Part shown: positions 1 to 12,240 of the stretch, one piece after another
Layout of the letters: each line of letters starts with the position of its first letter
Numbering within the stretch: position 1 is the stretch's first letter
Assembly: GCA_016928495.1 (NCBI GenBank)
Contig: JAFGKQ010000041.1
Span: 1-12,441 of the forward strand
Direction: 5' to 3'
DNA from: Candidatus Fermentibacterales bacterium
GTDB lineage: Bacteria; Fermentibacterota; Fermentibacteria; Fermentibacterales; JAFGKQ01
DNA: 12,441 nucleotides
The notes under the pieces: model-generated
What the model saw: the letters and a program-made list of their open reading frames with translations, nothing else
Databases searched by the model: none
Told to the model about the DNA's origin: nothing
Program-made: the position numbers and the translations under genes

Positions 1-992
1 GGGTACGACGGGGTCCTGAAGTGGGCCCTGTGAGGCTTGTCGCCGCCATCGCTCACGATGTACAGACCCAGCTCGCCGCGGGACGACTCGCACCGCACGT
101 AGGCCTCGCCAGCAGGGATCCTCCACTTGAACGGGTTCGGTATCCGGTTGTAGACCTCGCCCTCAGGCATCTCGTCCAGGAGCTTGAAGATCATGTGGAC
201 GCTCTCGATCATCTCGTCGCGGACCACCCAGATCCTCGAGAACGCATCTCCATCCTCGCGGGTCGGGACATCCCAGGGGACGCGGTCATAGGCGGCGTAT
301 GGCTCCACCTTCCGCACGTCGTAGGGAATGCCGGTTGCCCTGAGGACCTGTCCCGTGCCCCCCATGCGCAGCGCCTCGTCGCGCGTGACGGTGCCGACGC
401 CGTGCGCCCTGTCGTAGAACAGCCGGTTGTTGAAGAAGCAGCCGTCGTAGTCGGGCACGCATCCGCCTATGGAATGGAGAGTCTCGACCATCCGCTTCTC
501 GAAGCCTTCGGGGAAGTCTCTCCTGACGCCTCCCGGCCAGATGTAGATGTGGTAGACCCTGCCTCCCGTGAGCTCCTCGAAGAGGTCGAGGACGAGATCC
601 CTGTGGTACATGGCCCACTGAGCGACCGTGTCGAATCCAAGCATGTTGGAGTAGGCCCAGAGACCGAACAGGTGCGATCCGACCCTGGCTAGCTCCAGGT
701 AGATGCTGCGGATGAACTGCGCGCGCTCCGGCACCTCTATGCCAGCCAGCTTCTCGACCCCCATCGAGTAGATCATCTCCATCGAGTCGGGCTCGACCAC
801 GTTCATCCTGCAGACCATGGGGAAGTTCTTGATCCAGCTGCGCTGCTCCATCAGCTTCTCGAAGCCCCTGTGGAGGTAGCCGGGATTCGCGGTGGCCTCG
901 AGCACCCTGTCGCCCTCGACCTTCAGGGTGATGCTGAAGTTGCCCACCATCCCGAGGTGCTGGGGTCCGAAGTAGAGCTCGAGCTCTCTCAT
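1..992 (-). CDS. mbxL: Mbx/Mbh-type large subunit L (NuoD / [NiFe]-hydrogenase large-subunit family), C-terminus outside window
   Basis: The ATG at 992 overlaps the K stop by 4 bases (ATGA). The frame stays open to base 1, giving 330 residues of a protein that usually has roughly 380-430. Family marks seen are GPQHLG (9-14), GYLHRGFEKLMEQ (38-50), the VEKLAG block (about 79-84), and near the window edge RGELGLYIVSDGG. This subunit houses the active site in hydrogenases and forms the quinone cavity with NuoB in complex I. Ungapped alignment with the hydrogenase L1 motif RxCGxC gives Arg62-Met-Asn64-Val-Val-Glu67, so both N-terminal Ni-ligand cysteines are absent. A lone Cys61 sits just before the arginine. 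The C-terminal L2 motif lies outside the window and cannot be judged. Operon order H-H'-M-J-K-L favours an Mbx-like reductase subunit over a hydrogenase. The substrate is unknown. The family call is firm; the symbol is by analogy. Confidence 0.93.
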   Translation of the reverse strand, partial: MRELELYFGPQHLGMVGNFSITLKVEGDRVLEATANPGYLHRGFEKLMEQRSWIKNFPMVCRMNVVEPDSMEMIYSMGVEKLAGIEVPERAQFIRSIYLELARVGSHLFGLWAYSNMLGFDTVAQWAMYHRDLVLDLFEELTGGRVYHIYIWPGGVRRDFPEGFEKRMVETLHSIGGCVPDYDGCFFNNRLFYDRAHGVGTVTRDEALRMGGTGQVLRATGIPYDVRKVEPYAAYDRVPWDVPTREDGDAFSRIWVVRDEMIESVHMIFKLLDEMPEGEVYNRIPNPFKWRIPAGEAYVRCESSRGELGLYIVSDGGDKPHRAHFRTPSY

Positions 993-1516
993 TCGCCCTC
1001 ACCCCCGTCCTCGACGATGCTGGGGATGCTCTCGAAGAAGTCTTCGACGTATTGCCTGGTATCGAAGTCTTTCCTGAAGGGAGGAGTGTCGTAGCTCCTC
1101 TCCAGGAAGAGGGGGATCAGCCTGGGATGGCCCTCGAAGTCCACGCCGAACAGCTCGTGGATCTCGCGCTCGTAGGGCTCGGCCACCTCGAACAGAGGGA
1201 TGGAGGAGACCATCCTTGCCGGGTCCCTGGGGATCATGGTCCTGAGCAGCAGGTTCTCGGCATGTTTCGGATCGTACTGCTCGCCCGGGCGCATGTAGCG
1301 CGAGAGCACCCAGACCAGCTCCAGTGCTCCCTTGTCGATCCAGTCCACGCACGAGATCGCGTGGAGATGGTCGTAGCCGCTCTGCTTCAGGAAGCTCAGG
1401 ACTGACATGACCGCGTTCCGGCCGACGGCTATGGAAGTGTTGTTCGTCCCCTTCTCCACGATCCGCAGGCTGTCGAACGTCGAGTCCAGTCTCTGGCGCA
1501 GCGTATCGTCCATCAT
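989..1516 (-). CDS. mbxK: Mbx/Mbh-type subunit K (NuoC-like, respiratory-chain 30 kDa family)
   Basis: 175-residue soluble subunit that binds between the NuoB-like (J) and NuoD-like (L) subunits in the peripheral arm; it carries no cofactor. The NuoC signature is clear: EREIHELFGVDFEGHPRL in the C-terminal half, followed by PLFLE and an acidic tail (EDGGEGE). The N-terminal half has the expected alpha/beta pattern, with HLHAISCVDWIDKG in the middle. Two adjacent ATG codons occur at 1516 and 1513. The first overlaps the J stop as ATGA, the second as TGATG. A GAGG Shine-Dalgarno lies 4 or 7 bases upstream. I chose 1516; an ATG further out at 1546 lies inside J and is unlikely. The stop overlaps the start of L by 4 bases. 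Family assignment is firm; its role is inferred from the complex. Confidence 0.93.
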   Translation of the reverse strand: MMDDTLRQRLDSTFDSLRIVEKGTNNTSIAVGRNAVMSVLSFLKQSGYDHLHAISCVDWIDKGALELVWVLSRYMRPGEQYDPKHAENLLLRTMIPRDPARMVSSIPLFEVAEPYEREIHELFGVDFEGHPRLIPLFLERSYDTPPFRKDFDTRQYVEDFFESIPSIVEDGGEGE

Positions 1517-2067
1517 CCGGCCTCGATCGGGAACAGGGGCGGCCATTCCAGGCCCAGAAGCACCTTCTCCTGGTTGGCCCTGTACTGGCTGTAGTACTTC
1601 CTGTATCGCTTGTAGCCGTCGGCCATATCCTTGTCTATCAGGGTCCAGAGGTGCGTGACGGCCACGAAGATCGCCTCGGGTCTGGGCATGCAGCCCGCGA
1701 TCCAGCCATCAATGGGGATGTATTTGTCCAGGTGCTTGATGGTGTTGTAGGAGTCCCAGTACATCCCCCCGTTGATCGGGCACGAGCCGAATCCGACCGT
1801 GTACTTGGGCTCGGGCATCTGCTCGTAGGTCCGGATGATGGCCTTCAGAGTCTTCACGGACACGTAACCGGTTATCAGGAAGAGATTCGCCTGCCTCGGG
1901 CTGGCCGTCGGCAGAACCCCGAACCTCTCGGCATCCCAGCGGGCGGTTATAGACGGCGGCACCTCTATGATCCCGCAACCCGTGCAGAAGTAGACGGCGT
2001 GCAGGGAGTACTTGTGCCCCATCTTCGCCGGGGCTTCCAGCCACTTGATGAGCTGGTTACGATCCAT
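1513..2067 (-). CDS. mbxJ: Mbx/Mbh-type subunit J (NuoB-like [4Fe-4S] small subunit)
   Basis: 184-residue homologue of NuoB and the group 4 hydrogenase small subunit, which carries the proximal (N2-equivalent) [4Fe-4S] cluster and delivers electrons to the site in L. All four ligand cysteines are visible: CTGC (28 and 31), GSCPINGG (Cys95) and GCMPRPEA (Cys125). The first pair is CxxC, as in group 4 hydrogenases and Mbx, not the CC pair of complex I. This supports the hydrogenase-like lineage of the complex. The C-terminal third is basic and Tyr-rich (KRYRKYYSQYR). The start ATG at 2067 has an AAGGTGA Shine-Dalgarno inside the end of M. The 3-base gap to M is the only non-overlapping junction of the operon. 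No key residue is missing. Confidence 0.95.
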   Translation of the reverse strand: MDRNQLIKWLEAPAKMGHKYSLHAVYFCTGCGIIEVPPSITARWDAERFGVLPTASPRQANLFLITGYVSVKTLKAIIRTYEQMPEPKYTVGFGSCPINGGMYWDSYNTIKHLDKYIPIDGWIAGCMPRPEAIFVAVTHLWTLIDKDMADGYKRYRKYYSQYRANQEKVLLGLEWPPLFPIEAG

Positions 2068-2070
2068 GAA

Positions 2071-2961
2071 TCACCTTCCGACGAGAGCAACCAGCACGAG
2101 GCCGATCAGGCCGATCAGCGTGGGCCAGCGCCAGAGGTATCGAACCGCCTGCTCGATTCTGAATCTGGGGAAGACGGCGTTCACGAACAGGAACAACACG
2201 AAGACGACAAGCATCTTGAACAGGAAAATGACGATGTTCCCGCTGCCGCCGAGCATCAGATTGACGAAGAGCGAGATGGTGATGTAGAGGCTGAGCGCGT
2301 GCTGGATGCTGACCAGAGCCAGGTACGATCCTCCGTACTCGACCATGGGCCCGGATGAGATCTCCTGCGGGGCCTGCACGACCTCGAAGGGCCTGAACCC
2401 CAGCATCGCGGGCATGACCAGGAGATAGGCCAGGCCCGAGACCACCAGGGGCCAGGACGCGATAGACCATGTCGAGGCCTGCTGGACCCGGACGATCTCC
2501 ACTATGGAGATGGTGCCGTACCTGGTCATCACGGCCAGAAGCACCATGAGCAGTGGGACCTCGTAGCCTATGGCGAGCATGAGGTTGCGCGAGATGCCTA
2601 TGCTGGCGTTGGGATTGCCTGACTCACCCCCGCTGAGCGCTATGCCCAGAGGGCCTATCAGCATCATGTAGAGTATCACCAGCATGCCGCCGGAGCCGCT
2701 CAGGGGCGCGATGTTCCCGAAGGGCAGGAACAGCGTGATGATCAGCGACCCGGCGAGCGAGACGACTATCCCCAGGTCGAACAGGATTCCATGGCTCGCG
2801 CTCCTCTGGCTGAAAAGCCTGATGATGTCGATCACCGGCTGGAGCAGGGGAGGACCGTAGCGCCAGTGTATCCTGGCCATGATCTTCCTGGACAGGCCGA
2901 GCAGCAGCACGCCCGCCACCAGGGCGATCAGGGGAGACAGGAAGAGCCAGACGATGCGCAT
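2071..2961 (-). CDS. mbxM: Mbx/Mbh-type subunit M (NuoH-like membrane anchor)
   Basis: 296-residue membrane protein of the NuoH/HycD family. This subunit docks the peripheral arm (J, K, L) onto the membrane arm and helps couple redox chemistry to ion movement. Family marks: ARIHWRYGPPLLQPVIDIIRL after the first helix, SRNLMLAIGYEVPLLM in the middle (with the conserved Glu of the E-channel helix), RPFEVVQAPQEISSGPMVEYGG, and about eight hydrophobic segments. The start ATG at 2961 overlaps the H' stop (TAATG, 1 base). In Pyrococcus Mbh the M gene follows L; here it sits between H' and J, as reported for mbx clusters. No defect is seen. Confidence 0.94.
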   Translation of the reverse strand: MRIVWLFLSPLIALVAGVLLLGLSRKIMARIHWRYGPPLLQPVIDIIRLFSQRSASHGILFDLGIVVSLAGSLIITLFLPFGNIAPLSGSGGMLVILYMMLIGPLGIALSGGESGNPNASIGISRNLMLAIGYEVPLLMVLLAVMTRYGTISIVEIVRVQQASTWSIASWPLVVSGLAYLLVMPAMLGFRPFEVVQAPQEISSGPMVEYGGSYLALVSIQHALSLYITISLFVNLMLGGSGNIVIFLFKMLVVFVLFLFVNAVFPRFRIEQAVRYLWRWPTLIGLIGLVLVALVGR

Positions 2962-4820
2962 TACCAGGGGCTCCAGGTAAGCTGGACGAACACCAGCGCG
3001 GCCAGGAACAGCACGATGTACATCACGTAGCTACCAACGTATCCCGAGTAGATCTTCCTCGTCATGCCGCCGAGCGCCTTCGTCCTGTCAGCTATCCAGA
3101 GGAAGAGAGCGTCGGGGAAGTCCTTCACATAGGGACTCACTATTCTGTAGAGAGGCGCGTAGAACTCACGGGTGAAGCCATACCTCCCCCTGGGTATCGC
3201 TGCCCCTGCCGCATAGTTGTCGCTCTGATCGACCCGCGTGGATCTCCCGAGGGTCTTGAACAGCAGCCATACCAGGAAGCCGGCAACCGCAATGGCAGCG
3301 AGCAGGTTCACCACGTTGAGGGTACCCGACTCGGAGGGGATCCCCCAGACGTTGAGATCGAGGGGTTCGAAGCCCATGTAGGTGCCGACCTGGTTGACTA
3401 CCGAGAGCGGGATGCCCGGCAGGACCCCGAACAGGAACACCAGCACCACCAGCACCATGATGGGCACCGCCATGGTGAAGGGGACCCTCTTCACATCACG
3501 CAGCTCGTCGGGGAGCTGACCCAGGAAGATGTTGTGGATGAACTTGTAGCCGTAGAGAATCGTGCCCCAGGTTCCGAGGAACGCGGCGAAGGCCAGGAAG
3601 GGCCGACCCTCCAGTATCAGGGACTTGTAGATCAGCCACTTCGACACGAACCCGTTGGTCAACGGAAGGCCGATCAGGCCGAAGATCCCGACGAGTCCGC
3701 CCACGAAGGCAACCGGCATCTTCTTGATAAGCCCGCCCAGAGAGTCCAGGTCCCTGATCCCTCCAGTCCGGTGCTCGATTGCGCCAGCCACGAAGAACAG
3801 GAGGGCGATGTAGATGCAGTGGTTCAGTATGTGGAACGTCCCTCCGGCCATTCCCATGCTGGTGGCGACCGAGACGCCCAGAACCATGTACCCGCCCTGG
3901 CCGACGGTGCTCCAGGCCAGGATCCTCTTGGAGTCGTTCTGGAGAAGTGCCCTGAAGGCGGCGAAGACTATGGTTATCGCCCCGATCCAGGCCAGCACGT
4001 TGCTGAAGCTGATCGCGCCGACCGCTAGCCTGTCCAGGAAGGAGAAGCCCAGAATGACGTACATCAGCAGGAACAGGCCGTAGAGCCCCTTCCTGACCAG
4101 CACTGCCGAGAGTATGGCCGAGAACGGGGACACCGCCTCGGCATGCGCGTCAGGCAGCCAGGTGTGGAAGGGCCACAGGGCGTTGATGATGACGAAAGTA
4201 ATGGAGAACAGGATCACCACGAGCAGAGCCAGGCCTAAGGAGGCCGACTGCATGTGCACGGCGAGCTCGCCTATGTCCACAGTGCCGAAGGCCGTGTAGA
4301 GGCTTACTATCGCCACGAGCATCGCAAGGGAGCCCACCAGCGACATGATGATGTACTTGATGCCGGCGAAAATGGCCTTGCCGCCCCCTCTGAGGCTGAT
4401 CAGTAGGTACGTGCTCCAGCTCATCATCTCCCAGAAGATGAAGAAGGAGAGGAGGTCTCCCGCGACGACCGTGCCCAGCATGCTGGCGTTTATGAACAGC
4501 AGGGTGAAGTAGTAGTAGTCGAGCCTCTCCTTGCCCTTCATGTAGCGGAAGGAGTAGAGCACTGCGAGGAGTCCGATGCCGAGTATGGTCGCGGCGAAGA
4601 ACCACGACAGCATGTTCATCCGGATCGAGAACTGGATGCCCAGGAAGCCGAACGGCAGGCTCCTCTCGAACTCCTGGCCGTAGAGCATGCCTATCATGAT
4701 GACCAGGGCAAGGGCGTTGAGCAGCGCGAAGCCGTTGCGCAGCCGCGAGGACAGCTTGCCAAGCACGTAGGTCAGGAGAGAACCCCCGAAAGCTACGATC
4801 AGGAGCAGCTCGACCATCAT
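2961..4820 (-). CDS. Second antiporter-like subunit H' (NuoL/MrpA/MrpD family) of Mbx-type complex
   Basis: 619-residue polytopic protein of the Na+/H+ antiporter family that includes NuoL/M/N and MrpA/D. Seen: transmembrane segment 5 with the key glutamate (FFIFWEMMSW, Glu131), the PFHTWLPDAHAEA loop (217-229), SAILSAVLVRKGLYGLF (234-250), the KRILAWSTVGQGGYM motif, and a long C-terminal region. That region has a polar stretch (RSTRVDQSDNYAAG) and ends in an extra membrane helix (YVMYIVLFLAALVFVQ). The lysine normally found five residues before Pro217 on TM7 is Ile212; the usual TM8 lysine aligns with Arg243. Two large antiporter subunits in tandem (H then H') is the Mbx arrangement, while Mbh has one. 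The start overlaps the H stop by 4 bases. It probably forms one ion channel of the membrane arm; the ion is not determinable. Confidence 0.92.
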   Translation of the reverse strand: MMVELLLIVAFGGSLLTYVLGKLSSRLRNGFALLNALALVIMIGMLYGQEFERSLPFGFLGIQFSIRMNMLSWFFAATILGIGLLAVLYSFRYMKGKERLDYYYFTLLFINASMLGTVVAGDLLSFFIFWEMMSWSTYLLISLRGGGKAIFAGIKYIIMSLVGSLAMLVAIVSLYTAFGTVDIGELAVHMQSASLGLALLVVILFSITFVIINALWPFHTWLPDAHAEAVSPFSAILSAVLVRKGLYGLFLLMYVILGFSFLDRLAVGAISFSNVLAWIGAITIVFAAFRALLQNDSKRILAWSTVGQGGYMVLGVSVATSMGMAGGTFHILNHCIYIALLFFVAGAIEHRTGGIRDLDSLGGLIKKMPVAFVGGLVGIFGLIGLPLTNGFVSKWLIYKSLILEGRPFLAFAAFLGTWGTILYGYKFIHNIFLGQLPDELRDVKRVPFTMAVPIMVLVVLVFLFGVLPGIPLSVVNQVGTYMGFEPLDLNVWGIPSESGTLNVVNLLAAIAVAGFLVWLLFKTLGRSTRVDQSDNYAAGAAIPRGRYGFTREFYAPLYRIVSPYVKDFPDALFLWIADRTKALGGMTRKIYSGYVGSYVMYIVLFLAALVFVQLTWSPW

Positions 4821-6289
4821 CGCAGCACACTCCCGATGTAGGCTGCCCTGTCAAGCAGGTCGGAAGCTGCCGTGCTCAGAGCGTCGGCAACCGGCTGTGG
4901 ATAGATGCCGACGAAGATGATCAGGACAGCCAGAATGAGCATCGATATCAGTGGAAGCGCCGGAGCCAGACTCCTGGATGCAGGCTCATCCCCGCTCTTC
5001 TTGAAGTAGATCGCCTGCACCACCCTGAAGAAGTAGGCTCCCTCCACCAGCGTGCCCAGCAGCACGAAGCCCAGCAACAGGGTGAACAGCGTCTGCTGCT
5101 TCTCGAGAGCTGACCTGACGATCAGGAACTTGCTGGGGAAGCCGATGAAGGGCGGCAGCCCCACGATGGAGAAAGCCCCGAAGCTGAACGCCAGCGACGT
5201 GAGGGGCATCCGCCTGCCCATGCCGTTGAGGGAGGATATTTCCATCGAGCCGCTCCTGTGGATCATGTAGCCCGCGGCAAGGAACAGCAGAGCCTTGCTC
5301 AGGGTGTGCGTCAGGAGCTGGAACAGGCCGCCGGCCAAGGAGATGGTGCTTGCCATGGCGAAGGCGAAGACTATCAGCCCGATCTGCCCTATGCTGGAGT
5401 AGGCCAGCATGCGCTTGATGTTGGTCTGGGCGAAGGCGCAGAGCTCACCCATCAGAACCGTAAGCACACCCAGGAACAACAGGAACATGAATATGCTCGT
5501 GGCGCCGAACACGGTGAAGATCATCCGCACCACGGCGTAGAGGCCCACCTCGATAGCGATGCCCGAGAGTATCGCGCTAATGGATGAGGGGGCGGACGAG
5601 TGCGCGTCGGGAAGCCATGCGTTCAGAGGGAATATGGCTGCCTCGACACCCAGCCCGCTGACTATCAGAGCAAGCGGTACGAAGACCGAGATATCGCTGA
5701 CCGAGCCGATCCTGCTGGCGATGTCCGCCATGTTCAGCGTACCGAACAGCCCGTAGAGCAGGCCTATGCCCATCAGGAGCAGCGCCGAGCCAACCGCTCC
5801 CTGGATCAGGTACTTGGCCGCGGCCTCCAGGCCGTTCCTGTCCCCGAAGTAGGCGACAAGGGCGTAGGAGGAGATGCAGAGCACCTCGAAGAACACGAAC
5901 AGATTGAAGACGTCGCCCGTCAGGACCACTCCGGTGGCGCCGACCAGCAGCAGCATGTAGAGCATGTGGTACCTGACGGTCGGGCCTGTCCTGATGTAGG
6001 AGAGTGCGTAGATTGCGATGACCAGTCCTGCCAGCGCTATCAGCCCGGCGAACATGACTCCCACGGGCCCGGCGAACAGGTTGATGCAGAAAGGTGGGCT
6101 GAAGCCTCCTATCCTCTGGATGACAGGTGCGGAGAGGACCGTAGGTATCAGCCTTATCGCCACGATCAGGTTGAAGGCACACGCGACCAGCGGCACGAAT
6201 CTCGGAAGCCTGCGCGAGATCAGGGCTATCAGGGGCATGGCGAAAGCAAGGCCCAGCGGAACAGCGATCAGGAGCACGGGACTTACCAT
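4817..6289 (-). CDS. mbxH: Antiporter-like subunit H (MrpD/NuoN family) of Mbx-type complex
   Basis: 490-residue protein with about 14 membrane segments, of the MrpD/MbhH family. Motifs: GDVFNLFVFFEVLCISSYAL with TM5 Glu135; AIFPLNAWLPDAHSSAPSS after TM7; SAILSGIAIEVGLYAVVRM on TM8; NIKRMLAYSSIGQIG; and HTLSKALLFLAAG with His328 and Lys332. The TM7 position that holds the proton-relay lysine in NuoL-type subunits is Glu216. The TM8 position of the usual lysine is Glu247, and the histidine of FPLH is Asn223. These substitutions may be a clade trait rather than a defect, since the frame is intact and otherwise well conserved. The ATG at 6289 overlaps the end of the mrpC-like gene by 7 bases (ATGGTAA). 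Likely role: ion translocation next to the Mrp module. Confidence 0.93.
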   Translation of the reverse strand: MVSPVLLIAVPLGLAFAMPLIALISRRLPRFVPLVACAFNLIVAIRLIPTVLSAPVIQRIGGFSPPFCINLFAGPVGVMFAGLIALAGLVIAIYALSYIRTGPTVRYHMLYMLLLVGATGVVLTGDVFNLFVFFEVLCISSYALVAYFGDRNGLEAAAKYLIQGAVGSALLLMGIGLLYGLFGTLNMADIASRIGSVSDISVFVPLALIVSGLGVEAAIFPLNAWLPDAHSSAPSSISAILSGIAIEVGLYAVVRMIFTVFGATSIFMFLLFLGVLTVLMGELCAFAQTNIKRMLAYSSIGQIGLIVFAFAMASTISLAGGLFQLLTHTLSKALLFLAAGYMIHRSGSMEISSLNGMGRRMPLTSLAFSFGAFSIVGLPPFIGFPSKFLIVRSALEKQQTLFTLLLGFVLLGTLVEGAYFFRVVQAIYFKKSGDEPASRSLAPALPLISMLILAVLIIFVGIYPQPVADALSTAASDLLDRAAYIGSVLR

Positions 6290-6642
6290 CTCAGCTCCTT
6301 GATCTTGCGCAGGTCCAGAGTGCCGTAGCGCTGGTAGAGCCTGACCGCAATTGCCAAGGCCATGGCAAGCACCGCAACGCCTATCACGATCGCGGTCAGC
6401 ACCAGCGCCTGTGGCACCGGGTCGACCATGCGCGACGGGTCCATGTCGTCCCTGCAGAAGATGGGGGCGGTCCCGTTGCTGATATAGCCGACCGAGATAA
6501 GGAAGAGGTTGACCCCCGTGTCCAGGATGCTGAGGCCGATGATGACCTTAATGAGGTTGTGCTTTACCAGCATGATCAGGAGGCCGATGAAGATCAGGCC
6601 GAAGGCCCCGAAGTAGTAGGCGTAGTCCTCGAGGAAGCTCAT
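6283..6642 (-). CDS. mrpC: MrpC/MnhC-type subunit (MbhG-like, NuoK family)
   Basis: 119-residue, three-helix subunit of Mrp Na+/H+ antiporters and of Mbh/Mbx membrane arms, homologous to NuoK. Diagnostic motifs are LIKVIIGLSILDTGVNLFL in the second helix and DPVPQALVLTAIVIGVA in the third. Between them is a loop carrying DDMDPSRMV. The ATG at 6642 overlaps the previous stop by 4 bases (ATGA); longer in-frame extensions upstream lie inside the neighbouring gene and are discarded. The C-terminus is basic (LDLRKIKELRW). It is expected to sit between the MrpA/B-like domains and the MrpD-like subunit H encoded immediately downstream. Confidence 0.94.
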   Translation of the reverse strand: MSFLEDYAYYFGAFGLIFIGLLIMLVKHNLIKVIIGLSILDTGVNLFLISVGYISNGTAPIFCRDDMDPSRMVDPVPQALVLTAIVIGVAVLAMALAIAVRLYQRYGTLDLRKIKELRW

Positions 6643-7328
6643 TGGCTTTCCTCCACCAGACGGTCTATCACGCCTGCAAGCTCCGATCCGACCTTGAGGC
6701 CGATGGCTATGTAGATGAGCGGTATGATGCCCCCGCTGAAGAGCTGACCGAGGGTGCCGGCGGGGAGGAAGGCTGACAGGAAGTAGTGGCCCGCTGCGGT
6801 CAGCCCGGCCAGGCCCAGAACTACGAATGTCAGCCCGCCGAGGGATTCGACGGCGCTGCTCCAGGCCTCGTGGACCCTTCTTCCCCTGCATCCCAGGTAG
6901 GTCAGCAGGAAGGCGGACGCTATGATCGCGCCTCCCTGGAAGCCGCCGCCGGGCGTGAGGTGGCCGTGTATGAAGATGTACGCGCCGAACAGCACTATCA
7001 GGGGAAACAGGAAGCGGCAGCCCGTATAGAGCACCAGGCTTGCCGGCTCCCATCCGTTGGCCTTCGGCGTCCTGGTGCCGGTGGCAAGAACGGCGCCGAG
7101 GCCCATGGCCGCCACGAACAGCACTGCCACCTCGCCGAGAGTATCGAAACCCCTGTAGCCCAGCACGACCGATGTGATGATGTTGACCGCCCCGGTGTCC
7201 TCTCGCCCGTTCTCCACGTAGTGCGTGGCGATGTCTGCCTTGGGCTTGCCGAACGGAATGTCGGTCAGGGTCATGGCGATGCCGAGAGCGATGACCGCAA
7301 GCGCAAGGAGGCTCAGGAAAACCCTCAT
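6639..7328 (-). CDS. Fused MbhE-MbhF protein (MrpA C-terminal domain plus MrpB/MnhB)
   Basis: 229-residue protein joining two parts that are separate genes in Pyrococcus mbh. Residues 1 to about 95 match MbhE, the last part of MrpA: YVENGREDTGAVNIITSVV followed by GYRGFDTLGEVAVLFVAAMG (58-77). Residues from about 96 on match MbhF/MrpB: FGAYIFIHGHLTPGGGFQGG (114-133), then three more hydrophobic segments and a polar end (LVEESQ). The linker (TRTPKANGWEPASL) is short and the frame is uninterrupted. It belongs to the Na+-translocating part of the membrane arm. The start overlaps the mbhD-like gene by 4 bases. The fusion is read directly from the frame; the function is from family knowledge. Confidence 0.9.
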   Translation of the reverse strand: MRVFLSLLALAVIALGIAMTLTDIPFGKPKADIATHYVENGREDTGAVNIITSVVLGYRGFDTLGEVAVLFVAAMGLGAVLATGTRTPKANGWEPASLVLYTGCRFLFPLIVLFGAYIFIHGHLTPGGGFQGGAIIASAFLLTYLGCRGRRVHEAWSSAVESLGGLTFVVLGLAGLTAAGHYFLSAFLPAGTLGQLFSGGIIPLIYIAIGLKVGSELAGVIDRLVEESQ

Positions 7329-7564
7329 TCCTCGTGCCTCCTAGTCCTGCGTATGGCGATGATGAAGATCGCGGTCACTAGCGCTGCACCGATGGATGCT
7401 TCCGCCATTGCCACGTCAGGAGCATGAAGGAAGTAGAAGAGTATCGAGGCCAGGAGGCTGACTACGCAGGATGCGATCACGGCGTTCAGGAGATCCTTGA
7501 ATATCAGGGCCGCCAGGGCCGAGCAAAGCATCAGGAGCACAAGCAGGGAGACGAGTACTATCAT
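7325..7564 (-). CDS. MbhD-like subunit (MrpA C-terminal DUF4040-type domain)
   Basis: 79-residue membrane protein with three hydrophobic segments. It corresponds to the piece of MrpA that is the separate subunit MbhD in Mbh/Mbx complexes. Key motif: FKDLLNAVIASCVVSLLASI and then LHAPDVAMAEASIGAALVTA, the conserved DVAMTEA-like helix. The end is strongly charged (RRTRRHEE). The ATG at 7564 overlaps the MrpG stop by 4 bases (ATGA); the longer upstream reading in this frame lies over mrpG and is discarded. The helix with Asp and Glu (APDVAMAEA) is thought to face the ion path in Mrp-type modules. Confidence 0.91.
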   Translation of the reverse strand: MIVLVSLLVLLMLCSALAALIFKDLLNAVIASCVVSLLASILFYFLHAPDVAMAEASIGAALVTAIFIIAIRRTRRHEE

Positions 7565-7905
7565 TGCTCCTTCTCCCCGCTCTTCTCCATGAAGGAGTCG
7601 GTCCTGTCCACGACGCTCTGGTCGCATAGGGGCACTCCGCTCTTCCTGGAAGCCCTTCCCAGAGCGTGGTTGGAGATGGGGTTGGTCAGCAGGATGAACA
7701 GTGCTATCGCCAGGGTCTTCCAGAACCAGGCCGGCTCCATGATCCCGACACCGATGATGGTAAGGCAGGCACCCAGCGTTGTGCACTTCGTGCCGGCCTG
7801 CAGCCGGTTGTACACGTCCGGCATCCTGAACACGCCCAGGCCGCCAAGGAACAGGAACAGGACGCCGATCCCGGTTACCACGGTTCCGAGGACCTCGAGG
7901 AGCAT
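7561..7905 (-). CDS. mrpG: MrpG/MnhG-type subunit (MbhC-like)
   Basis: 114-residue subunit with three membrane helices. The diagnostic MrpG motif is FRMPDVYNRLQAGTKCTTLG, followed by a second hydrophobic helix and LLTNPISNHALGRAS. About 30 hydrophilic residues follow the last helix (VVDRTDSFMEKSGEKEQ), a modest tail after the conserved core. The ATG at 7905 overlaps the mrpF stop by one base (TGATG). Much longer in-frame extensions reach over mrpF and are artefacts. MrpE, F and G are the small accessory subunits of the Na+/H+ antiporter module and are kept in the Mbh/Mbx complexes. Confidence 0.93.
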   Translation of the reverse strand: MLLEVLGTVVTGIGVLFLFLGGLGVFRMPDVYNRLQAGTKCTTLGACLTIIGVGIMEPAWFWKTLAIALFILLTNPISNHALGRASRKSGVPLCDQSVVDRTDSFMEKSGEKEQ

Positions 7906-8165
7906 CAGATGCCCCTCTCGAGGAACCTGGCGATGGCCACGGCTCCTATGAAGGTCAGCACGGCATAGACGAGCGACACGTCCAGGTAGACGTACCTCTG
8001 GAACACGAATCCCATCAACACCAGGAGAGCCGTGGTGACCGTGCAGGCCGTGTCGGCAGCAACTGCCCGGTCGGAGGCCGTGGGACCCATGAACAGCCGC
8101 AGCAGACACAGCAGGATCCCGAGGCCGATAAAACCGGTGAAAACGAGAACGACGGTCTCGCTCAC
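7905..8165 (-). CDS. mrpF: MrpF/MnhF-type subunit (MbhB-like)
   Basis: 86-residue, three-helix membrane subunit. The conserved motif GPTASDRAVAADT (27-39) between the first two helices identifies MrpF/PhaF. The third helix contains VYAVLTFIGAVAIARFLERG. In Mrp antiporters the Asp of this motif is the conserved acidic residue of the subunit. The ATG at 8165 overlaps the mrpE stop by 4 bases. The stop is shared with the mrpG start (TGATG). Length and composition are normal for the family. Confidence 0.95.
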   Translation of the reverse strand: MSETVVLVFTGFIGLGILLCLLRLFMGPTASDRAVAADTACTVTTALLVLMGFVFQRYVYLDVSLVYAVLTFIGAVAIARFLERGI

Positions 8166-8728
8166 TTGAATATCCTCCGGAGGTACTTTTCGAACCTCCC
8201 GCCGATCAGCTTGGTGGCGGTCTCGATATCCTCTGCCCGTACGTCGATCCAGTGAATCAGCAGCTCGTCGCCGATGATGTCCAGAGTGAAAGTGCCGGGC
8301 GTCAGGGTGATGGAGTTCGCGAGGATCAGCTTGGCTATGTCCTGCTGCAGCTCGGTCCTTATCACCACTATGCCGGGCCTGATGGGCAGCTTCGGGTGGA
8401 TCACCCGCCAGGCGACGTCAAGATTGGCCTTGATGATCTCGATTGCCAGGATAGTGGCAAACGCGATCATGTTCAACAGCCTCCACGGGGTGAGGGGCGG
8501 CATCCCGAGCTGCTGGTAGACCCTGTTGAGAGCGATGGCCATGATCAGAGACAGAGCAGCTCCTACGATCAGCTCCTGCCAGTGGAAGCTGGATGTAAGG
8601 ATCAGCCAGACCGCGAACAGGAGAACTATTAGCCAGATGAAGCTCCTGACACCGCCCGCCGGGGCGCCGCCCGGAGGACCCGGCATGGGCCTGGCGGGTC
8701 TCTGCGGTCCGGCTTCCAGCTCGCTCAT
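8162..8728 (-). CDS. mrpE: MrpE/MnhE-type subunit (MbhA-like) with Pro/Gly-rich N-terminal extension
   Basis: 188-residue subunit of the Mrp-type module. The conserved C-terminal soluble domain is clear: LANSITLTPGTFTLDIIGD, then LLIHWIDVRAEDIE and GRFEKYLRRIF. Two to three hydrophobic helices occupy roughly residues 28-80, followed by LDVAWRVIHPKLPIRPG. It differs from typical relatives in about 27 residues rich in Pro, Gly and Ala before the first helix (ARPMPGPPGGAPAGG). The start is nevertheless supported by a 4-base overlap with the rex stop (ATGA). The extension would lie in the cytoplasm if topology is standard. First structural gene after rex. Confidence 0.92.
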   Translation of the reverse strand: MSELEAGPQRPARPMPGPPGGAPAGGVRSFIWLIVLLFAVWLILTSSFHWQELIVGAALSLIMAIALNRVYQQLGMPPLTPWRLLNMIAFATILAIEIIKANLDVAWRVIHPKLPIRPGIVVIRTELQQDIAKLILANSITLTPGTFTLDIIGDELLIHWIDVRAEDIETATKLIGGRFEKYLRRIFK

Positions 8729-9384
8729 TCCCTCATCCTCAGATCCTTAGCCTGATCATGGAGGCGGGAGCGGTACATGAGGCGGGCCATCTCCATGCTC
8801 AGGTCTATGCAGGTGACCTTAACGGTCTCGGGCATGCACAGCTCGCAGGGACTCAGCGAGAGAATCGAGCTTACTCCCGCATCCGCGAGTGTCCTTGCTA
8901 TCTCGGGAGCTGCCGTATCGGGCACTGCCAGGATGGCCAGGTCGATGCCTGCGGACTTGACCCTGGCGGGCATCTCAGCGATGTCCCCGACCGTCAGGGC
9001 CCCGACCGTCTTTCCGATCTTGGAGGGGTCGCTGTCGAAGAGCATCGAGATATTGAATCCCTCGATCTCGAATCCGCCCGAGCGGGCGAGGAGCGCGCGG
9101 CCGATGTTGCCCGCGCCGACCAGGACCACGTCGATGGAGTCGTCGAAGTTGAGTATCCTGCGGAAGTTCTTCAGTAGCTTCTGCACGTTGTAGCCGACGC
9201 CCCGGATTCCGAACTCGCCGAAGTAGGAGAAGTCCTTTCTGACCACCGCAGCGGTTACATGGCATATCTCGGCAATACGCTTGGAGGAGACAGTCTCGCT
9301 GCCTTCCCTACGCAGGCATGTGAGCGCCCTGAAGTAGGTGAAGAGGCGGTCTATGGTTTCGTTCGGGATTCCTCTTGGTGCCAT
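8725..9384 (-). CDS. rex: Redox-sensing transcriptional repressor Rex
   Basis: 219-residue DNA-binding repressor that senses NADH/NAD+ through a Rossmann domain. High NADH releases it from DNA. Winged-helix domain: about 1-80, with RKDFSYFGEFGIRGVGYNV (49-67). Rossmann fold: VVLVGAGNIGRALL (86-99, glycine motif 90-95), then LFDSDPSKIG. The C-terminal swapped helix region is DLSMEMARLMYRS (194-206). The start is ATG 9384, because GGAG at 9390-9393 lies 5 bases before it; GTG at 9390 would overlap that site. The segment usually reading NFAP-x-x-L-x-V-P here reads SLSPCELCMP, with a CxxC pair (180, 183). It is the first cistron of the operon, overlaps mrpE by 4 bases and has a Rex-type operator directly upstream, so it is probably autoregulated. 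Confidence 0.96.
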   Translation of the reverse strand: MAPRGIPNETIDRLFTYFRALTCLRREGSETVSSKRIAEICHVTAAVVRKDFSYFGEFGIRGVGYNVQKLLKNFRRILNFDDSIDVVLVGAGNIGRALLARSGGFEIEGFNISMLFDSDPSKIGKTVGALTVGDIAEMPARVKSAGIDLAILAVPDTAAPEIARTLADAGVSSILSLSPCELCMPETVKVTCIDLSMEMARLMYRSRLHDQAKDLRMRE

Positions 9385-9393
9385 AGTCACTCC

Positions 9394-9411
9394 ATGTGAT
9401 CGTGTTCACAT
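9394..9411. promoter_or_regulatory. Rex operator (ROP) upstream of rex
   Basis: The core TGTGAT-CGTG-TTCACA (9395-9410) matches the Rex consensus TTGTGAW-N4-WTCACAA in both half-sites. With one flanking A/T pair it is an 18-bp near-palindrome. A third half-site copy, TTCACA at 9411-9416, directly follows. It also creates a wider palindrome CATGTGA-N12-TCACATG at 9393-9418. The site lies just upstream of the rex Shine-Dalgarno and downstream of a putative promoter, a position fitted to block transcription of the whole operon. Confidence 0.85.
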
Positions 9412-10361: not shown

Positions 10362-10386
10362 GGCGGGCGAAGCGGAAGGAGTGGAC

Positions 10387-11268
10387 ATGGGCTGCGGGTT
10401 GCTCCTGGCTGTGTTGCTGGCGCTTCCGGGCTCCATGGCTCGTGGCCGCGGGGGAACCATCGCCGCGACTGGGGCGCATGATCCCTACCGGGACTACACA
10501 ATCACCATCACTCCCGTGGTCTCCCACCAGGTCAGCTTCACTGACGAGGTCCTGGGAATGAGCTTCGATGACACCGGTTGGCCTCGTATCCTGTGTGTCA
10601 GCGGCCTGGATGACATGCTGTACAGCCTCGAGCCGCTCACCGCGGACTCGCTCGACGCCCTGGCGCTCGCCGAACCCAACGACGAATGCTGGGGAGTTGC
10701 CTGGCTTGACGAAGTACTGGTGTACACCAACGACTGCAGCGACACCTGGCTCTACTGGTATGACTCCTCCGAGTGGTTCACCGACGAGAACGGAGCGGGC
10801 AGCGACGGGCGGGGAATGGACTACGACAGCGACCTGTTCTGGCAGGCCGTGAACGAGGGAGCCCTCCACAGCGTGGTTTCCTGGGACCCGATGTCCGGCA
10901 TCTGGACCTGGTCCGACATCTCTGCCTGGGTCCCCGGAGACCTGAGCGGGCTGACTGCCTTTGCCAGGGACACCTCATCCTATGTCTGCGTGACCACGTT
11001 CGACGCTGCGGATATCTGGGTCTTCCGAACGGAGGACAGGGAGATCGCCGAGTACATCGGGAGCGCCTCTCTCCCGGCGCCTGCCACGTCTTCCCACGGC
11101 CTGTGCTACAGCGACTACTTCGACAGCTTCTGGTGGTCCTACGAGTCAGGAGGCGGGAACTACATCTACCAGTTCGACATGCATATCGAGCTCACCGCCA
11201 TCGAGGGGACTACCTGGGGAGGGATCAAGGCCAGGTTCCAGGAAGCCGCGCTCGGCCTGCCCCGGTAG
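10387..11268 (+). CDS. Secreted propeller-like repeat protein with TWGxIKA C-terminal motif, hypothetical
   Basis: 293 residues. ATG 10387 is preceded by AAGGAG with 5-base spacing; GTG 10381 overlaps that site and is rejected. The N-terminus is a signal peptide (CGLLLAVLLALPGSMA). The body has about five repeats of 40-50 residues with a G-x-x-[YWF]...-W/Y core, for example GMSFDDTGWPRILCV, GVAWLDEVLVYTND, GMDYDSDLFWQAVN, GLTAFARDTSSYVCV and GLCYSDYFDSFWWSY. They resemble beta-propeller blades of secreted proteins. It is acidic and rich in Trp, Ser and Asp. The C-terminus holds TTWGGIKARF followed by eight more residues. That motif is shared with the lipoprotein at 11626-12240. Enzymatic function is unlikely to be readable from this sequence; I assign none. 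Confidence 0.8.
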   Translation: MGCGLLLAVLLALPGSMARGRGGTIAATGAHDPYRDYTITITPVVSHQVSFTDEVLGMSFDDTGWPRILCVSGLDDMLYSLEPLTADSLDALALAEPNDECWGVAWLDEVLVYTNDCSDTWLYWYDSSEWFTDENGAGSDGRGMDYDSDLFWQAVNEGALHSVVSWDPMSGIWTWSDISAWVPGDLSGLTAFARDTSSYVCVTTFDAADIWVFRTEDREIAEYIGSASLPAPATSSHGLCYSDYFDSFWWSYESGGGNYIYQFDMHIELTAIEGTTWGGIKARFQEAALGLPR

Positions 11269-11625: not shown

Positions 11626-12240
11626 TCAAAGACAGGCCTTGATCGCCCCCCAGGTTCTCTGCGACAGGCCGAGTTCCTCTACCTCCACCGTCACGTGGAA
11701 CGGGTCGCCGTCCCAGTAGTAGGTTCCTCTGCTCGGCTCTGGCTCCTCATCGCTGTAGGCCGCGCCGAGGAATGCGATTTCCACGGAGCCCACGATGTCA
11801 TCCGTGTAGATGGTCACGGTGACACTGTAGGTATCACCGGGCTCGCCCTGCACCAGCTCGTCGGAGCTGAACCCAAGCCAGTGCTCCCAGGGGCTGCTGG
11901 GATAGTCGTTCTCGATGGGCCAGACGACTGAGCTGTCGGGCGACATGTTCCCCGGCCCGTATGGACCCGAGTAGCTTGCGCCGAAGGCGCTCCACCCCAC
12001 CGGCACCAGCACGCCGAGACCTCCCCATGTCTGGCCGCCCTCTTCTCCGACCACCACGGTGACCACTGCCTGGAAGCTGCTGTTGGAGTACACGCACTCC
12101 GGCACTTGCACATCGGTGGTGCTGACGCATCCGCACACCACGAGAGCCGTCACCGCGAAGCCAAGCCCGAAGCGCCTCCTGAGAGCCCCCACGCCGGTCA
12201 CCTCCATGTTACCCGTTTGCAGCCGGGTTTCCGCCTCCAT
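11626..12240 (-). CDS. Putative lipoprotein with Ig-like domain and TWGxIKA C-terminal motif
   Basis: 204 residues from ATG 12240, or 193 from ATG 12207. The outer start overlaps the preceding stop (TGATG), with a GGTGG 7 bases upstream, so coupling is plausible. The inner start gives a more ordinary signal peptide: MEVTGVGALRRRFGLGF, then AVTALVVCGC, a lipobox with Cys at residue 38 of the long form. The mature part is acidic and beta-rich: FQAVVTVVVGEEGG, LGVLVPVGWSAFGASYSGPY, WEHWLGFSSDELVQGEPGD, YSVTVTIYTDDIVGSVEIAF. The layout (GVLVPxGW, YSG, a W-rich patch, then TVTI-TD strands) suggests an immunoglobulin-like sandwich as in other surface proteins of FCB bacteria. It ends RTWGAIKACL. 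No specific function is assigned. Confidence 0.75.
   Translation of the reverse strand: MEAETRLQTGNMEVTGVGALRRRFGLGFAVTALVVCGCVSTTDVQVPECVYSNSSFQAVVTVVVGEEGGQTWGGLGVLVPVGWSAFGASYSGPYGPGNMSPDSSVVWPIENDYPSSPWEHWLGFSSDELVQGEPGDTYSVTVTIYTDDIVGSVEIAFLGAAYSDEEPEPSRGTYYWDGDPFHVTVEVEELGLSQRTWGAIKACL

Follow-up and report, generated by a model that had tools for sequence, protein, structure and literature searches.

We analyzed a 12,441-nucleotide stretch of DNA (the window) from a Candidatus Fermentibacterales bacterium (GCA_016928495.1), which is one whole contig (JAFGKQ010000041.1; G000:C125) of a 2.3 Mb genome with a completeness of 81%. The nearest named relatives of this genome are Candidatus Fermentibacteria and Aegiribacteria. 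The minus strand carries an operon that opens with rex and continues with twelve genes, A-B-C-D-EF-G-H-H'-M-J-K-L, for a respiratory complex of the membrane-bound sulfane reductase (MBS)/MBX superfamily. An earlier note, made from the sequence alone, had described this gene order, and all of its reading frames were recovered in place and on the same strand. Most operon genes overlap the next by a few bases, and rex overlaps A by 4 bases. The contig ends inside L, with 330 of about 365 residues encoded. Searches of Pfam, NCBIfam, and the PDB confirmed the subunit identities; scanning the window for Rfam families and tRNAs gave no match. The features are as follows.

9395 to 9410, no strand assigned: Rex-type operator TGTGA-N6-TCACA, adjoining the front of rex and the single match in the window
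8725 to 9390, minus strand: rex, NADH/NAD+-sensing repressor at the head of the operon (225 bits to the NCBIfam Rex subfamily NF003995, cut-off 126)
8162 to 8728, minus strand: subunit A, MnhE-like (PF01899, 143 bits)
7905 to 8165, minus strand: subunit B, MnhF-like (reading frame and position; orthologues at the same place in relatives)
7561 to 7905, minus strand: subunit C, MnhG-like (reading frame and position; orthologues in relatives)
7325 to 7564, minus strand: subunit D, MbhD-like (reading frame from the sequence; orthologues in relatives)
6639 to 7328, minus strand: subunit EF, MbhE and MnhB fused (PF20501 and PF04039 within one protein)
6283 to 6642, minus strand: subunit G, MnhC/NuoK-like (reading frame from the sequence; orthologues in relatives)
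4817 to 6289, minus strand: subunit H, antiporter-like (PF00361; best NCBIfam match PRK08377, 454 bits)
2961 to 4820, minus strand: subunit H', antiporter-like, 619 aa (best PDB match 6u8y_X of Pyrococcus furiosus MBS, 233 bits)
2071 to 2961, minus strand: subunit M, NuoH-like membrane anchor (PF00146, 201 bits)
1513 to 2067, minus strand: subunit J, with the predicted proximal [4Fe-4S] cluster (best PDB match 6u8y_J)
989 to 1546, minus strand: subunit K, NuoC-like (PF00329, 88 bits)
3 to 992, minus strand: subunit L, cut by the contig end, with V16, N64, V65, and E67 (6u8y_L, 316 bits)

Phylogeny, gene set, and the J motif make the complex a member of the MBS/MBX superfamily. The earlier note had preferred this type over a hydrogenase, and besides the gene order both PDB scores and trees bore it out. 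L matched P. furiosus MbsL (6u8y_L) with 316 bits and MbhL with 132 bits. The A-EF-G-H-H'-M-J-K-L-N set and order of MBS/MBX runs from A to L in the window and is completed by N in relatives, among which 21 complete loci have the same order. In a tree of L, the window fell into a 100/100 clade inside a 100/100 MBS/MBX clade, apart from Nuo/Fpo and Mbh. Because the approximately unbiased (AU) test was indecisive with L alone, rejecting a union of the clade neither with Nuo/Fpo (p 0.11) nor with Mbh (p 0.09), we added J. The J+L tree gave the same placement (clade 100/100 inside MBS/MBX 100/100), and grouping of the clade with Nuo/Fpo was rejected (p 5e-8). Branch order within MBS/MBX is poorly fixed by these trees, and we place the clade there neither as basal nor otherwise. 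The phylogeny proposed in the earlier note therefore puts the complex outside both the true group 4 hydrogenases and Nuo/Fpo.

The clade is large and widely distributed. From a homologue search of the contigs of about 85,000 genomes, one scan returned 53 loci, of which 52 belong with the window; they carry about 24 phylum-level names. Their L subunits are at least 65% identical to the query, mostly 75-88%, and the 49 L copies with the cysteine-free signature described below likewise fall under about 24 phylum-level names. Several clade loci sit on contigs 65-361 kb long, which makes it unlikely that binning error accounts for the whole set. One carrier is a metagenome-assembled genome (MAG) of the Thermotogae (locus L077). 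The clade operon was also seen in a MAG labelled Thermoplasmata (L039), on a contig of only 4.2 kb, which may reflect either transfer to an archaeon or faulty binning.

The clade is marked by its L subunit, in which all four Ni-ligand positions lack cysteine. The stretch R-I-C-V-P-E-P-D of MbsL aligns with R-M-N-V-V-E-P-D in the window, so that Asn64 takes the position of MbsL C85 and Glu67 that of the second cysteine of Mbh. The earlier note had these two residues at the first two NiFe-cysteine positions, which the MbsL alignment confirmed; only Asn64 is special, since Glu or Asp occupies position 67 throughout MBS/MBX. We compiled a residue table from 47 clade members, 48 other MBS/MBX L subunits, and 12 Nuo/Fpo sequences. 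Position 64 is Asn in all 49 readable clade sequences and Cys in 48/48 of the other MBS/MBX L subunits. The position of MbsL C385 is Val, Thr, or Ile in the clade, with Cys in no member, and is again Cys in 48/48 of the others. The L C-terminus and the gene that follows it lie beyond the window and were read from relatives' loci; as to the C-terminal motif that the earlier note wanted read, the relatives' L has no cysteine there. The quinone-site residues His38 and Tyr87 (Nqo4 numbering), present in 12/12 Nuo/Fpo sequences, are Val16 and Val65 in the window, and the equivalent of Mbh Glu21 is absent, with Val in clade L. In P. furiosus MBS, MbsL C85 and C385 as well as MbsJ C25 are dispensable for polysulfide reduction (PMC7684303), and the loss of the first two from the clade thus fits sulfur reduction. 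Because they are not essential for MBS activity, we treat the two residual L cysteines as a variable rather than a defining trait of MBS/MBX.

Subunit J points to the proximal cluster as the site of catalysis. The AlphaFold model of J has 6u8y_J as its top Foldseek match, and the two sequences align with no gaps across the CTGC motif. As in MBS, the cysteine loop is three residues shorter than in the J subunits of hydrogenases. In MBS, this shorter loop goes with a cysteine, MbsJ C25, that binds no cluster, and catalysis is ascribed to the open iron (PMC7684303). The earlier note had stated that J keeps all four Fe-S cysteines; C28, C31, C96, and C126 are indeed present in the window, but the description is functionally misleading. 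C28 aligns with MbsJ C25, and this position holds Gly in two paralogue groups of the Fermentibacteria and Ala in L077. C31, C96, and C126 are invariant and are the predicted ligands. Because natural loss hits exactly the dispensable cysteine, coordination by three cysteines is supported across the family. Given the short MBS loop and the dispensability of the residual L cysteines in P. furiosus, we expect catalysis at J's proximal cluster rather than at the vacant site in L. The earlier note's view that electrons are carried to J stands, and the acceptor, which it had put at the L site, is better placed at this cluster. J and L have a mean identity of 80% within the clade, and every other subunit 52-68%; such conservation speaks for a working J/L site. 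The models of J and N made with AlphaFold are of modest confidence (predicted local distance difference test, pLDDT, 75-77) and contain no cofactors, so cluster coordination is not readable from them.

Two further MBS-type complexes were seen in the same bacterial order, with L 43-51% identical. Their H and H' are apparently fused in a reading frame of about 973-1043 aa (L028, 4155-7076; L029, 12047-14968; L030, 3336-6458; L034, 3632-6763), and their J is without the C25-equivalent cysteine. One genome (G029) holds three kinds of MBS-type complex together.

The earlier note expected an N/NuoI-like subunit after L, and relatives with this sequence available do encode N, a protein of about 617 residues, directly behind L. 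In addition, its NuoI/MbsN ferredoxin domain (two clusters) is fused to an NfnL-like module, which retains the FAD motif, the GGGN nucleotide motif, and the Fe-S cysteine pattern for two clusters; the N model matches P. furiosus NfnL (5jca_L, E 4e-45). The YRR of NfnL, which is of the NADP type, is replaced by SLE or CLE in 41/41 clade members, with the Glu just past strand two of the nucleotide fold. An acidic residue there suggests, by the rule commonly applied to folds of this kind, that the substrate is NADH. N is likewise fused to NfnL in the Thermotogota MBX loci and is separate in Thermoplasmatota MBS loci and in P. furiosus (MbsN, 208 aa). No NfnS-like gene was noticed in clade operons, although no genome-wide search was aimed at NfnS. 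Neither the missing end of L nor an N gene was found elsewhere in the 81% complete assembly of the window's own genome, where the other matches were GltD-like or ferredoxin pieces. Because loci with L 87-90% identical to that of the window have the fusion, this genome presumably has it too. This fusion, the leading rex with its operator, and the large clade with cysteine-free L had all been missed in the earlier note.

The gene neighborhood gives supporting context. The single Rex-type operator in the window compares with 0.02 matches expected from shuffles. About ten relatives have rex before A; exact copies of the operator precede rex at the matching place in six loci (L035, L036, L037, L044, L073, L085), L043 has a copy with a single mismatch, and none was found for L046, L055, and L061. 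Immediately upstream of A, a small ArsR regulator is encoded in six loci, instead of or besides rex. The one regulator searched had BigR as its best PDB match, and two cysteines are common to the three that were read to their full length. In three loci (L049, L066, L075), an upstream gene is closest to the coenzyme A (CoA)-disulfide reductase of P. horikoshii, of the sulfur-reductase (NSR) family. Like the Rex operator, this gene and the BigR-like regulator in some relatives count in favor of the mechanism proposed below.

Other genes were seen around the operon. A CooF-like ferredoxin gene lies downstream in L041, L054, L059, L060, L075, and L078, often accompanied by group 4 hydrogenase subunits and AsrA/AsrB-like genes. 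Single loci have HdrA-like, HdrB/C-like, and fumarate-reductase (TfrA/TfrB-like) genes beside the operon (L069, 13018-19183; L048, 2-2388). In the window, the products of 10381-11268 (plus strand) and 11626-12240 (minus strand) are unrelated proteins that end in a TWGxIKAx-like motif, also seen in L032 and L043. Five reading frames among 3514 have this ending (one gene accounts for two of the five), which is perhaps a C-terminal sorting tag.

Taken together, the mechanism with the best support, and one we hold to be moderately probable, is reduction of sulfane sulfur with NADH and/or ferredoxin, coupled to ion pumping. NADH, and probably reduced ferredoxin too, would feed electrons into N, which would hand them on to J, where the proximal cluster, with three cysteine ligands, would have an open iron. 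This iron may reduce sulfane sulfur (polysulfide or persulfide) in a hydrophobic chamber of J, L, and M, and the reaction in the peripheral J-K-L-N arm would drive pumping by the Mrp-like membrane arm. Rex would tie the operon to the NADH/NAD+ ratio. The preference for NADH, catalysis at an open iron, sulfane sulfur as acceptor, pumping, and the same N in the window's genome are all parts that we infer. In the related mbx of Thermotoga maritima, mbxA is induced by S0 (PMC9431562). We offer a wider proposal only tentatively: an Nfn-type flavin module in a complex I-like pump might confurcate electrons from NADH and ferredoxin onto sulfane sulfur in one machine, which would have spread by gene transfer across many anaerobic bacterial phyla and stayed hidden under complex I annotations.

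Several points weigh against sulfane sulfur reduction. NADH and polysulfide are close in potential, and ferredoxin is about 0.2 V lower; with NADH alone, the nearly isopotential reaction would pump little, and we therefore keep ferredoxin as a probable co-donor. Ferredoxin, or both carriers jointly as in confurcating hydrogenases, would give the pump more gain. At E 1e-40, neither the window's own genome nor two others (G003, G005) gave a sulfur-reductase homologue, so that an NSR-type neighbor is not obligatory and the complex itself is the only tie of its own genome to sulfur. We infer the sulfane sulfur activity of the clade from sequence, and Asn64, Val16, and a residue other than Cys at C385 are fixed in this clade alone and might reflect a different acceptor. 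An MBS-like complex acting on an organic disulfide, a heterodisulfide, or a hydrophobic oxidant of another kind would explain these residues, which differ from all other MBS sequences examined, and would suit the Hdr-like and fumarate-reductase-like genes beside the operon in single loci. We regard it as unlikely, because the J loop and the hydrophobic L site are otherwise MBS-like and several loci have sulfur-linked neighbors. Equally doubtful to us is an ion-pumping ferredoxin:NAD(P)+ oxidoreductase with a vestigial or structural J/L site. An NfnL-like NAD(P) module fused to a ferredoxin domain agrees with this older reading of Mbx, which was long named a ferredoxin:NADP oxidoreductase (PMC4596419; PMC6349859). 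However, no other subunits are as conserved as J and L, and it is the reaction in the J/L chamber that drives pumping in complex I-like enzymes. Moreover, RnfC scored above its cut-off in 12 of the 14 carrier genomes checked, including the window's own; a ferredoxin:NAD+ pump is thus already present there, and the complex is no stand-in for Rnf.

The remaining two alternatives fare worse. The NCBIfam NuoD model PRK06075.1 gives L 377 bits against a cut-off of 360, so that automatic annotation would label the operon complex I; this speaks for an ordinary quinone-reducing relative of complex I or Fpo, and the AU test on L leaves this grouping standing. We nevertheless consider it very improbable given the valines at the His/Tyr positions, the rejection on J+L, and three of the 14 carriers with no UbiA-family prenyltransferase, a loose quinone marker. 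The chance of a group 4 NiFe hydrogenase, for which common ancestry and the subunit set speak, is negligible: the loss of all four Ni-ligand cysteines from clade L refutes it, and a separate group 4 hydrogenase of the Mbh type, its nickel motifs intact, lies on contig C233 of the same genome (L032, 4785-8771).

If sulfane sulfur reduction is correct, a wide range of uncultured anaerobes would have NADH- and ferredoxin-linked sulfur respiration in operons now read as complex I. A survey of the polysulfide-rich Zodletone spring counted psrABC and sulfhydrogenases, with no Mbx or NSR in its main text (PMC9040765). Several of our loci have 'Zod' isolate names, which suggests that they may come from the same site. 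The evolution from hydrogenase to complex I also has a natural experiment in this clade, where all NiFe cysteines were lost, apparently independently of complex I, and no quinone site was gained.

Both bacterial MBX and the architecture with an NfnL-like fusion (PRK13984 of NCBIfam, 'putative oxidoreductase') were already known. The window's complex is set apart from known MBS/MBX by the loss of both residual L cysteines, along with a presumed NfnL-fused N. With P. furiosus MBS (6u8y) the clade shares subunits A, B, C, D, E, G, H, H', M, J, K, L, and N, the best PDB matches of L, J, and H', the short J loop, and the lack of quinone or Ni residues. It differs in C85 (Asn) and C385 (Val/Thr/Ile) of L, in an N that is fused to NfnL in relatives whereas MbsN is separate, and in Rex instead of SurR. 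The 13-subunit Thermotoga MBX (PMC9431562) is similar in its N-NfnL fusion, and Thermotogota L is 45-52% identical; however, Thermotogota L keeps Cys at both remaining positions, and the window clade is a separate 100/100 branch. From NfnL of Nfn, the NADH-dependent ferredoxin:NADP oxidoreductase, the clade module retains the fold, FAD motif, GGGN motif, and Fe-S cysteines, but it is fused to a NuoI/MbsN domain and has SLE/CLE for YRR. Nuo/Fpo have homologous J, K, L, M, and antiporter subunits; they fall outside the clade, whose L lacks the quinone His/Tyr and whose J has CTGC in place of adjacent CC.

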